Origin: a virus | IMG/VR virus record: IMGVR_UViG_3300020205_004822 | Coordinates: 1 to 34,077 of that record | DNA: 34,077 bases | Reading direction: 5' to 3' (one strand) | Part shown: positions 29,730 to 33,883 of the stretch, one piece after another | How positions within the stretch are numbered: the stretch's first letter is position 1 | Layout of the letters: each line of letters starts with the position of its first letter | Notes under the pieces: model-generated | Told to the model about the DNA's origin: nothing | Databases searched by the model: none | The model's input: the letters and a program-made list of their open reading frames with translations, nothing else | Program-made: the position numbers and the translations under genes

Positions 29730-30620
29730 ATGGCGGACAACGTCACGCATTACCTCAACGACATTGCGCGGCACCCAATCCTGTCGCGGGAAGCGCAGCT
29801 CCGCCACGCGCGCCGCATCCAAGCCTGGATCAAATACACACCACCCGGCGGCACCAAGCCCGACCGCCACGCGGCTCCCAACCACATCACCCGCGCCGGC
29901 CGCCGCTCCCTCGACGTCATGGTGCGCACCAACCTGCGCCTCGTCGTCCACATCGCCAAGCGTTACCAGAACCGCGGCCTGGACATCAACGACCTCATCC
30001 AAGAGGGCAGCATCGGCCTGATCCGCGGCATCGAGCTGTTCGACCCCACCCGCGGCTACGCCTTCAGCACCTACAGCTACTGGTGGGTGCGCCAGTCGAT
30101 CACCCGCGCCCTGTACAACAACGCCCGCCTGATCCGCCTACCGATCAACGCGCAAGAGACGCTGTTTAAGATCCGCCGCTACATCAACGAGTACATGGTG
30201 CACAACGGCTGCGCCCCCTCCCTGGAGCTGATCTCCACCGCCCTGGACCTGTCCATCGTCCGGATCACCGACACCCTGGCCAACTGCGCCACCACCGAGT
30301 GCGTCTCCCTCGACGGCCTCAGCGCCACCACCGAAAGCATGCTGTCCGAAGTGCTGACTCACCCCGAGCCTTCGCTGAGCGAGTGCCCCGAAGCCTGCCT
30401 GCTGTCCACCGAACGCGACGCGCTGCTGCTCGATGCGCTCGAGCGGCTGTCCGCCGAGGAGGCCTACGTTGTGCGCACGCTGCTACTCCACGGCGGCACC
30501 CTGCAGCAGCTCTCCACCGAGCTCGACATGTCCCGCCACCGGGTCAGCGCGGTGTACAAGCAAGCACTGCAGCGCCTCCGCAGCGAGCTCAGCTGGAGCC
30601 ACGAGATGTTCGCCGACTAG
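29730..30620 (+). CDS. Phage-encoded sigma-70 family RNA polymerase sigma factor
   Basis: A 296-residue sigma factor with region 1.2 ('VTHYLNDIARHPILSREAQL'), a complete region 2 ('NLRLVVHIAKRYQNRGLD', 'DLIQEGSIGLIRGIELFD', 'FSTYSYWWVRQSITRAL', 'NARLIRLP') nearly identical to host primary-type sigmas, a region 3 (about 155-200), and region 4 (about 230-285). The -10 recognition part is strongly conserved. In the -35 recognition helix, 'MSRHRVSAVYKQALQRLR', the residues aligned to E. coli E585, R588 and Q589 are His, Ser and Ala, so -35 specificity may differ. A short insert (GGTKPDRHAAPN) lies between regions 1.2 and 2.1. It sits directly upstream of a promoter-like repeat array and probably redirects host polymerase to late phage genes. 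Confidence 0.9.
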   Translation: MADNVTHYLNDIARHPILSREAQLRHARRIQAWIKYTPPGGTKPDRHAAPNHITRAGRRSLDVMVRTNLRLVVHIAKRYQNRGLDINDLIQEGSIGLIRGIELFDPTRGYAFSTYSYWWVRQSITRALYNNARLIRLPINAQETLFKIRRYINEYMVHNGCAPSLELISTALDLSIVRITDTLANCATTECVSLDGLSATTESMLSEVLTHPEPSLSECPEACLLSTERDALLLDALERLSAEEAYVVRTLLLHGGTLQQLSTELDMSRHRVSAVYKQALQRLRSELSWSHEMFAD

Positions 30621-30896: not shown

Positions 30897-30943
30897 TGAG
30901 ATTCTTGAGACTCCAGCCATCTCGGTGAGACTCATGAGACTTA
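30897..30943. repeat. Cluster of TGAGACTC-type repeats (iteron/operator-like)
   Basis: Four direct copies of an 8-base motif lie in 47 bases: TGAGATTC at 30897, TGAGACTC at 30906, TGAGACTC at 30926 and TGAGACTT at 30935. They form two pairs with 9-base spacing inside each pair and 29 bases between pairs; an inverted GGTCTCA lies just before at 30884-30890. The array precedes the first promoter-like element (TTGACG 30954). Its half site matches the palindrome at 26786-26803. Confidence 0.65.
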
Positions 30944-30953
30944 GCTGGGAGGC

Positions 30954-30984
30954 TTGACGTCTGCGGCCGGCCATGCAATGCTGG
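30954..30984 (+). promoter_or_regulatory. Promoter-like element, copy 1 of 3
   Basis: TTGACG (30954-30959), 13 bases, then ATGCAATGCTGG (30973-30984). Read as a sigma-70 promoter, the -10 would be AATGCT (30977-30982) preceded by an extended -10 CATGC, with a 17-base spacer. The hairpin CGCGCA/TGCGCG (30989-31005) follows. This is the most divergent of the three copies. Confidence 0.5.
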
Positions 30985-31042: not shown

Positions 31043-31087
31043 TTGACAGATCGCCGGAGCGTATGCAATGCTGGATTCATCGAAACG
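31043..31087 (+). promoter_or_regulatory. Promoter-like element, copy 2 of 3
   Basis: TTGACA (31043-31048) is followed by TATGC (31062-31066) and AATGCT (31067-31072), an extended -10 with an 18-base spacer. The downstream bases GGATTCATCGAAACGG are shared with copy 3, so identity to copy 3 over about 45 bases is complete except for one GC/CG swap. A transcript would start near 31079. Confidence 0.6.
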
Positions 31088-31133
31088 GCTACCGACTCGC
31101 GAGGCGTCGCCCATGGGGCGGGTCTTCCTCGGT

Positions 31134-31167
31134 AGGGGTTTCGATCCCCTCGGTTCTTCCCGAGGGG
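31134..31167 (+). other. Two mutually exclusive hairpins (attenuator-like)
   Basis: AGGGG (31134-31138) can pair with CCCCT (31146-31150) around a 7-base loop. The same CCCCT, extended to CCCCTCGG (31146-31153), can instead pair perfectly with CCGAGGGG (31160-31167). The two stems cannot coexist. The second stem ends exactly at the -35 box of promoter copy 3 (TTGACA 31168). No T-tract follows, so classic termination is not evident. Confidence 0.45.
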
Positions 31168-31212
31168 TTGACAGATCCGCGGAGCGTATGCAATGCTGGA
31201 TTCATCGAAACG
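31168..31212 (+). promoter_or_regulatory. Promoter-like element, copy 3 of 3, probable promoter of the ncRNA
   Basis: TTGACA (31168-31173), an 18-base spacer, TATGC (31187-31191) and AATGCT (31192-31197), then the conserved GGATTCATCGAAACGG. Transcription would begin near 31204, just ahead of the structured region. The last bases lead into hairpins CGGG/CCCG (31211-31222) and TACCAC/GTGGTA (near 31232-31247). Confidence 0.6.
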
Positions 31213-32023
31213 GGTTAGCCCGATTCGACCTTACCACGCTCGTGGTAGCACCTTGACAATTTAATAGTAGAGCGCCCAGAAACTATCGCTGCGCGCTGAT
31301 TGTCTGCCCGGACGCTTAACGCAGAAATGCGGTGTACGGAAGGCAGACATGTTGTGCCCAAGCGGTCGATCCGTTAGGTGCTCTGCTATTAAATAGTTTG
31401 GCAAGTGAAATAGGCTCGCCAGAACATTGACAATTCAGTTAGTTAGTTACACTTTGCAGAAGTGTGGTGACGTTGCGACAGCTGCAACCTCTCAGATAGT
31501 GCGGGCTCCGCCCATACTGCAAGCATAGTGTGCCTAGTTGACATAATAGCTTCCGCTATAGTATTGCTACCGGTAAGGTTACCGGGTGACATAGCATCAC
31601 TATCAGTATTGCGTAAGATGTGAAACTTAGGGAGCAACCTAGCTCCTACCGTATAGCCTTAGTGACTATATGGTGACAATGTAGCCGAATCACAGTAGGC
31701 CTTAGCATTGATCGAAGTTACGATTCACTATAGATAGGGCGTAGACTAGCAACTACGTCAGCCGTGGGCGTTCTATTTATAGCGTAGCCTAGACAATCTC
31801 TGGATAGACACTCTTCAATCACATCACAACCCTTGCTTGTTAGGTTACTCATACCTAGCAGTTCAACGGAGTTGTTTCCTGGTACATATGTCTTTAGCGG
31901 CATGTAACTTAGCTGGGTTAGTGGTAACACCCTACAGCTCGTTATTCCCCCGCACAGGAAACACAAAACAATCCATCTCCCCCAAAAGTTCCCCCTGGCG
32001 CACTGCGTCCGGGGGTCTTTTGG
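31204..32023 (+). ncRNA. Candidate large structured non-coding RNA (about 0.8 kb)
   Basis: No credible protein gene lies here, and the DNA is visibly more AT-rich than its flanks. Complementary segments are unusually long. 31259-31276 pairs with 31377-31394 over 18 uninterrupted pairs (two G.U), closing a multi-branched domain with arms 31302-31308/31342-31348 and CGCA-GAAA-TGCG (31320-31331, GNRA loop). ATACTG 31514-31519 and ATAGTG 31525-31530 pair with 31604-31609 and 31598-31603, a 12-pair helix with a 5-base bulge enclosing hairpins at 31546-31559 and 31570-31585. Further stems: 31648-31656/31666-31674 (9 pairs), 31728-31737/31773-31782 (10), 31838-31845/31853-31860 (8), 31911-31915/31935-31939 with an inner GUAA loop. 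It ends at a strong terminator. Length and phage setting recall GOLLD and ROOL RNAs. The start site and strand are inferred; other classes are possible. Confidence 0.6.
31982..32023 (+). terminator. Long hairpin terminator ending the non-coding region
   Basis: CCAAAAG (31982-31988) pairs with CTTTTGG (32017-32023), CCCCC (31991-31995) with GGGGG (32011-32015), and GG/CGC with GCG/CC inside, leaving an ACT loop. With A-tract and T-tract on opposite sides it can work in both directions. It would define the 3' end of the RNA above and separate it from the genes that follow. Confidence 0.8.
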
Positions 32024-32027
32024 CTGA

Positions 32028-32065
32028 GGTGCTTTGCACCTTCATCCACCCAAGCTGTGATCAGC
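32028..32065 (+). promoter_or_regulatory. Repeated 5' leader element, copy 1
   Basis: A hairpin GGTGC-TTT-GCACC (32028-32040) is followed directly by a 25-base box (32041-32065: TTCATCCACCC, AAGCTG, TGATCA, GC) that ends at ATG 32066. The same arrangement occurs at 33131-33168. No Shine-Dalgarno sequence is visible, so the element may itself control translation or RNA processing. Confidence 0.6.
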
Positions 32066-32284
32066 ATGACCCAACCCCGCTACGGCAATCGCCGGGCTGA
32101 CTGCCCCGGCTATCTGGAGTTCATATGGCGGCTGCCCTCAACGGCGCCCCACCCTCAAGCCATCGCCTACATCACCGAGGACGAGGGCTTCTACTACGGC
32201 TGCTATGGCACCCAAGTTGTCAGCGGCTCCACCGTCGCTGACGTCAAAGCAGCCCTGTTCCCTTTACTGGATGCCGGCCAATGA
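32066..32284 (+). CDS. Small hypothetical protein behind leader copy 1
   Basis: A 72-residue protein; ATG 32066 immediately follows the conserved leader box, while a GTG three codons upstream lies inside the box. The sequence is of mixed alpha/beta type ('ECPGYLEF'-like start, 'AIAYITEDEGFYYGCYGTQ', then a helix 'TVADVKAALFPLLD'). I recognise no domain. It starts a run of overlapping small genes typical of early phage operons. The ATGA overlap with the next gene implies coupled translation. Confidence 0.6.
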   Translation: MTQPRYGNRRADCPGYLEFIWRLPSTAPHPQAIAYITEDEGFYYGCYGTQVVSGSTVADVKAALFPLLDAGQ

Positions 32285-33126: not shown

Positions 33127-33130
33127 TCTG

Positions 33131-33168
33131 GGCGCCTCGCGCCTTCATCCACCCAAGCTGTGATCAGC
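33131..33168 (+). promoter_or_regulatory. Repeated 5' leader element, copy 2
   Basis: A hairpin GGCGC-CTC-GCGCC (33131-33143) is followed by the same 25-base box as copy 1 (33144-33168), one base before ATG 33170. The stem differs from copy 1 at the middle pair (C-G against T-A), a compensatory change, and the loop differs too, whereas the box is identical. This points to selection on RNA structure plus a conserved box. Confidence 0.6.
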
Positions 33169-33169
33169 T

Positions 33170-33883
33170 ATGCCAAACCCCAACGGACGGGTCCTCTACG
33201 AGGGTCCGTCGATGCTTGATGGCGCTCCGATTGTGGTGATCGCCACCGGCTTCGCCGAAGACTCCGCCAACGACAAGACCGGCGGGATGATCCAAACCTG
33301 GATCTTGCGCGCCGACCTCCCGCCGCACCACGCCTTCAAGTCCCCCGAGGGCGCCTCTGTCTGCGGCGACTGCCCCCACCGCCTCAACCGCACCTGTTAC
33401 GTCCGCTGGTACACGGCGCCCCTCGCTGTCTGGAACTGCTGGCACCACGGCGCGGGCTACGCCCCGGCCACCACGGCCGACTTCGACGGCTTCGACCTAC
33501 GCCTCGGCTCCGCCGGCGATCCGGCCGCCGTCCCCCGCTGGATCTGGGAAGCGATCCTCCCCCGAGTCCGCAAGCGCACCGGCTACACCCACCAATGGCG
33601 CCGCGGCGTAGGCGCCTGGCTCCGCGGCACGGTGCAAGCCAGCTGCGACTCTCTCCCCGACCTGGCGGAAGCCCGCACCACCGGCTGGCGCACCTTCACG
33701 GTCCTACCGCTGGGCGAAGACGACCCGGCCGGCACCATCCACTGCGCCGCCTCCACCGAGCGCGGCAACAAAACCAACTGCGCCACCTGCGGCCTGTGCG
33801 ACGGCGCCTCCGCTGACGTCGCCATCTGGGCCCACGGCGCCAGCGCCGCCCGCGTCCAACCCTCCACCCCCGCCCTCGCATGA
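33170..33883 (+). CDS. Conserved phage protein with cysteine clusters (possible zinc binding)
   Basis: A 237-residue protein from ATG 33170. The N-terminus 'VLYEGPSMLDGAPIVVIAT' with 'NDKTGGMIQTWIL' is a motif I associate with a widespread family of uncharacterised phage proteins (labelled DUF7227 in some databases, from memory). A first cysteine set is 'SVCGDCPHR..CYV' (about 63-76), and a second is 'NCATCGLCDG' (about 206-215), together enough for one or two zinc sites. In other phages it usually lies among early or replication genes. There is no catalytic triad I can name. It starts right after leader copy 2 and overlaps the next gene (ATGA). Confidence 0.7.
   Translation: MPNPNGRVLYEGPSMLDGAPIVVIATGFAEDSANDKTGGMIQTWILRADLPPHHAFKSPEGASVCGDCPHRLNRTCYVRWYTAPLAVWNCWHHGAGYAPATTADFDGFDLRLGSAGDPAAVPRWIWEAILPRVRKRTGYTHQWRRGVGAWLRGTVQASCDSLPDLAEARTTGWRTFTVLPLGEDDPAGTIHCAASTERGNKTNCATCGLCDGASADVAIWAHGASAARVQPSTPALA

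Follow-up and report, generated by a model that had tools for sequence, protein, structure and literature searches.

Organization of the locus

The DNA analyzed here, referred to as the window, comprises the whole of the IMG/VR virus record IMGVR_UViG_3300020205_004822 (positions 1-34,077; 34,077 nucleotides). The window phage is siphovirus-like and a relative of picocyanobacterial phages, and its genes include those for tape measure, tail, DNA polymerase A, primase and endolysin proteins. A sigma factor gene lies directly upstream of an array of promoter-like elements and of the RNA region, with the following features:

29730-30620, + strand: gene for a phage sigma-70-family factor of 296 aa (Pfam Sigma70_r2/r4/r1_2, PHROG 351)
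30954-30982, + strand: promoter-like element P1 (TTGAC-N-TGCAATGCT), identified by motif scan; the homologous stretch is conserved in relatives
31043-31072, + strand: promoter-like element P2, within a 46-nt direct repeat shared with P3 (96% identical)
31082-31144, + strand: strong hairpin of the predicted fold, located in the P2 leader ahead of P3
31168-31197, + strand: promoter-like element P3, within the other copy of the 46-nt repeat and closest to the RNA
31205-32023, + strand: class A large structured non-coding RNA, with putative ends, assigned from fold z-score, lack of a conserved frame and covariation
31982-32023, + strand: strong intrinsic terminator with a GC hairpin enclosed by CCAAAAG..CTTTTGG; it belongs to a block that almost all relatives conserve
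32057-32284, + strand: ORF of the first small gene past the RNA, which opens a rightward gene series

The GC content of the RNA region (31204-32023) is 0.47-0.52, compared with 0.60-0.73 on both sides. In a relative, G003 (the contig of locus L005), the sigma gene is followed on one strand by the RNA, small genes, and then terminase, portal and head genes; judged by this order, the RNA appears to come first in the late transcript, a rightward unit leading toward packaging and head genes. A promoter array had been proposed in the original prediction, and the repeats at 31043 and 31168, together with the third element at 30954, agree with it. In the scanned DNA of the window genome and G003, no clear promoter of this type turned up besides P1-P3, and no promoter-like site was predicted between the terminator and the window end.

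Several smaller elements accompany the array. Upstream of P1, GAGACTC / TGAGACTCATGAGACT repeats, which are conserved in relatives, cluster at 30900-30950 and represent possible activator binding sites. Relatives carry a comparable hairpin (CAGCCGCCCCGCGGAG...CTCCCCGCGGCTG) at the place of 31082-31144; given its very high predicted stability, the window hairpin is perhaps a separate small RNA. Downstream of the RNA, the leader at 32028-32060, before the first gene, recurs with 88% identity at about 33128-33160, before the gene at 33170.

Fold and coding potential of the class A RNA

The predicted fold energy of the + strand is -291 kcal/mol, compared with -243 +/- 8 kcal/mol for 20 dinucleotide-preserving shuffles (z = -6.1); the z-score of the - strand is -3.7. 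No credible ORF was found in 31204-32023, where the longest stop-to-stop run on the + strand is 61 codons. Comparison of the window with a homologous locus, L128, likewise revealed no conserved protein frame, since the alignment is equally good in every frame of either strand and stops interrupt each of them. The RNA was divided into three domains:

31247-31435, + strand: Domain I, closed by an 18-pair helix around inner stems, delimited by comparison with locus L333
31438-31686, + strand: Domain II, the multi-branched core, conserved in L128 and described by a 250-column model, R1
31704-31962, + strand: Domain III, variable, delimited by the L128 alignment and the fold

Domain I, flanked on either side by a copy of the TTGACAATT repeat (31253 and 31427), contains an inner GNRA hairpin (31320-31331). 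Domain III retains a conserved hairpin at 31841-31857, which reads TAGGTTACTCATACCTA in the window and TGGGTTACTCATACCCA in L128. The 18-pair inverted repeat and its flanking TTGACAATT copies might suggest a mobile element; this reading was rejected, since the arrangement recurs in L333 with compensatory changes in the pairs.

Homologues and covariation

Relatives were gathered by a sigma-based search, and further members were added through scans for the terminator and for a downstream protein. Class A comprises four records (the window, L128, L329 and L333), with no homologue spanning all domains. Pattern scans for further class A members returned only L128/L159 and three chance hits.

The L128 core is 76% identical to that of the window over 31406-31703. 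All 87 consensus pairs are kept there (82-87 across analyses), 12 of them through double changes; none of 500 shuffles scored as high, and slid alignments yielded 0-1 double changes. When the two cores were folded separately, they had 61 pairs in common, compared with a null mean of 8 and maximum of 36 (n = 200). The core model R1 also matches L329 (E 1e-12). A search with the L128 sigma factor led to L333, a more distantly related phage that contains Domain I, in which 41 pairs are kept, 12 show double changes and none is broken, with 0-1 double changes in slid controls; because plain MAFFT misplaced the 3' strand of Domain I, these counts come from a block-anchored alignment made by hand along the structure, which leans toward structure. 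The GAAA hairpin of the window corresponds in L333 to one with a GCAA loop and an altered stem.

These comparisons bear on most of the structural claims of the original prediction. The proposed AT-rich stretch of about 0.8 kb without a credible ORF is confirmed by the GC and ORF checks. Its 18-pair helix (31259-31276/31377-31394) exists, with two G-U pairs, and is backed by covariation with L333, while the proposed GAAA loop (31324-31327) is of the GNRA type and is replaced by GCAA in L333; the strong terminator likewise appears at 31982-32023 in the predicted fold. The proposed 12-pair bulged helix (31514-31530/31598-31609) fared differently: its strands are complementary in the window, but it shows no double changes, three of the 12 pairs are disrupted in L128, and the covariation-backed core fold is a competing structure. 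The wider proposal, a large, ornate non-coding RNA, perhaps of a new class, with the promoter array driving its expression, is supported. Covariation was found in two independent homologue comparisons, the core with L128 and Domain I with L333; no single frame is conserved between the window and L128; and promoters and terminator are present. A covariation-backed fold without a conserved frame is what characterizes large structured non-coding RNAs in general.

Exchange of RNA classes at a conserved locus

Approximately 40 relatives keep the flanks of the locus, at up to 99% DNA identity, while their interiors differ. The DNA of relatives is similar up to the last promoter (31214) and becomes similar again at 31968, and the interior cannot be aligned. 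L002 illustrates this pattern: its sigma factor is 96% identical to that of the window, yet the interiors are not alignable, the window carrying class A and L002 class B. Based on BLAST and nhmmer, the interiors were divided into at least seven mutually unalignable classes of structured RNA of about 0.4-0.8 kb, designated A-G, with perhaps an eighth, H; BLAST joins no classes over most of their length. The core model of class A matched none of the other classes, so that at this sensitivity its fold is not common to them. Class B shows covariation of its own, with double changes in 30 of 120 pairs, compared with a mean of 10 in shuffles.

Some classes are mosaics. Classes B, F and G have a 5' domain and a 3' hairpin in common, and a 60-nt 3' element is common to C, D, E and F. 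On the tree of sigma proteins, the class labels require at least 17 changes, where the minimum is 7. Identical sigma proteins occur with class B and with class E, and the sigma factor of L319 is 98% identical to that of L128, but L319 carries class D instead of A. Since the flanks are kept while the classes are reassorted relative to the sigma tree, whole RNAs have been exchanged, and recombination within the conserved flanks is the presumed route. That the locus holds a structured RNA and is swappable we regard as very likely.

A DNA search of isolated phages with the RNAs of the window, class D and class E gave no match, and as far as INPHARED was searched it contains no isolate with the cassette. 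Isolates with a related sigma factor, namely S-CBS1, S-CBS3, KBS-S-2A and S-LBS1, have no such gap after the sigma gene, and the RNA is therefore not essential to all such phages.

Alternative 3' ends

The terminator at 31982-32023 looks bidirectional in the predicted fold. Six records (L004, L015, L034, L035, L040 and L167) end in a tRNA-like 3' module rather than a terminator, consisting of an acceptor-like stem, which shows compensating changes where it varies, and a T-arm whose loop reads TTCAA[AG]T, around an odd middle. An example is the following:

L004:7890-8010: tRNA-like module of L004

The two kinds of end exclude each other, as 36 of 36 terminator loci lack the module and 6 of 6 module loci lack the terminator. 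A defined 3' end therefore seems to be under selection, reached through termination or perhaps tRNA-type processing. As tRNA or tmRNA, the 3' modules were not found by ARAGORN, and the Rfam tRNA model gave nothing above its cut-off at them. In bacterial genomes, the terminator pattern had no match, and the pattern of the tRNA-like core matched only where no T-arm was nearby. The modules resemble the MALAT1/mascRNA module and the tRNA-like domain of tmRNA in joining a 3' acceptor-like stem to a T-arm, a likeness confined to the six relatives and not extending to the window; unlike those systems, they are not recognized as tRNA, and a role in processing is only suggested.

Two observations concern the sequences around these ends. 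In L015, about 55 extra bases lie within the T-arm stem of the module. The 3' flank with the terminator (31968-32060) is about 90-95% identical in DNA even where the sigma proteins are only 56% identical, which is unusual for a terminator; this flank has perhaps been homogenized by cassette exchange.

Possible function of the RNA

We lean toward a reading in which the RNA is of a new, large kind, transcribed late as a discrete, trans-acting molecule and constituting one allele of a recombining cassette; taken as a whole, it seems to us somewhat better than an even prospect. The three tandem promoters after the sigma gene would drive rightward transcription, probably late in infection, and the strong terminator would cut off an RNA of about 0.8 kb as a discrete molecule, a tRNA-like 3' module taking its place in some relatives. 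The RNA is predicted to fold into at least three domains, and recombination in the flanks would swap all of it, or single domains, for other structured RNAs. Such an abundant late RNA might serve in trans as a scaffold or binder of a host or phage machine and not as a message, and action in trans is moderately probable. Diversification could result from conflict, with competing phages or host defence, or from assembly with like molecules only. Structure conservation, the promoter-like array, the terminator, modularity and swapping are the observed elements on which this reading builds.

In the main rival reading, the RNA serves the late operon as a leader in cis and controls whether transcription continues past the terminator at 32020 into packaging and structural genes. 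The RNA does lie between a putative late promoter and a terminator, ahead of late genes as seen in G003, in the order of sigma gene, three promoters, RNA, terminator and small genes, with the terminase, portal and head genes of G003 on the same strand and no other clear promoter of the same type downstream. In the lambda pR' leader (6S RNA, tR') and the put RNA of HK022, a late regulator gene is similarly followed by a promoter, a non-coding leader, a terminator and late genes, and the lambda 6S leader occupies the start of its late transcript. Known cis antiterminator RNAs, however, are far smaller than 0.4-0.8 kb; the phage RNA is several times larger than these leaders, elaborately folded and swapped wholesale between relatives, and at least seven unalignable alleles would not be expected of a leader. 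Replacement of the terminator by a tRNA-like module in six loci also looks like the making of a 3' end and not control of read-through. Size, ornateness, wholesale allele exchange and alternative 3' modules thus argue for a discrete RNA, and position argues for a leader, which as the sole explanation we consider unlikely; the two roles could both hold in part.

A form of the trans-acting reading would make the RNA a determinant of counter-defence or superinfection specificity, each allele acting as decoy or inhibitor against a particular host defence or rival phage. Such a role would explain swapping between near-identical phages, as seen in the number of class changes, in identical sigma factors with different classes and in L128 versus L319, and the flanks are suited to homologous exchange. 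No target, complementarity or defence partner has been identified, however, and the late placement is atypical of anti-defence genes, leaving this role rather doubtful.

To return to the favoured discrete RNA, a tentative extension, possible though not what we would expect, is an "RNA serotype" locus, where, under balancing or arms-race selection, close relatives trade the entire fold of a late, discrete, large RNA whose assembly or targets are class-specific. It would be to RNA what swapped cassettes for receptor binding or anti-defence are to protein-coding genes. Should conflict lie behind the swapping, phages would seem to diversify their RNA tools much like their tail-fibre or anti-defence genes. 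The locus shows structured RNAs moving whole, as interchangeable modules, between phage lineages. With many alternative RNAs at one place behind the same promoter type, allele swaps can compare their functions.

Relationship to known RNA families

GOLLD and ROOL, large phage RNAs of known structure and no known function, are often encoded near tRNA islands and form oligomers (PMC12286853). The original prediction had named them as candidate families and called for a covariance-model search; neither this assignment nor any other known family found support. Rfam scans at gathering and permissive thresholds matched no family in the window or its relatives. In the window genome and 13 related records, neither the GOLLD (RF02032) nor the ROOL (RF03087) model gave a match at E <= 10, the ROOL result being the weaker negative since no control genome matched either. 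Although the record is that of a phage, no tRNA gene occurs at the locus in the window or in 31 related loci, and the tRNA model run directly gave only weak matches elsewhere.

A diverged GOLLD or ROOL forming an RNA-only cage would account for the phage origin, the length of 0.4-0.8 kb, the ornate fold and the variable region beside conserved parts, traits in which the window RNA does resemble these large, ornate families. The silent models and the lack of tRNA genes make it improbable, however, and the position after a sigma gene and the many interchangeable classes set the locus further apart. The at least seven classes of large RNA are absent from Rfam 15, while large phage RNAs as such are a known kind. 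In the literature searched, we found no report of a swapped RNA locus of this type, which does not prove that there is none. A decaying GC-poor spacer or degenerate gene with a chance fold, in keeping with low GC and no known family, can be set aside as highly improbable, given covariation with controls in three alignments (L128 core, class B and L333 Domain I) and no common frame from which to have decayed.

Short elements in the non-A classes

Just after the last promoter, a mini-ORF whose ATG is separated from the stop by at most one codon is kept in most of the unalignable non-A classes; the loci include L003, L010, L020, L024, L033 and L085, and the products read Met-His, Met-Arg, Met-Ser or Met-Asp. 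It was scored by script in 35 of 40 loci, compared with about 6% by chance, a count that includes one false call in the window, at an internal site, and many near-copies. Codon and stop vary while the frame is kept, and class A has no mini-ORF. This hints at ribosome contact in those non-A classes. A second element, GCAA-(hairpin)-GGCTCTGC, recurs near the RNA 3' end in most non-A classes, sometimes twice.
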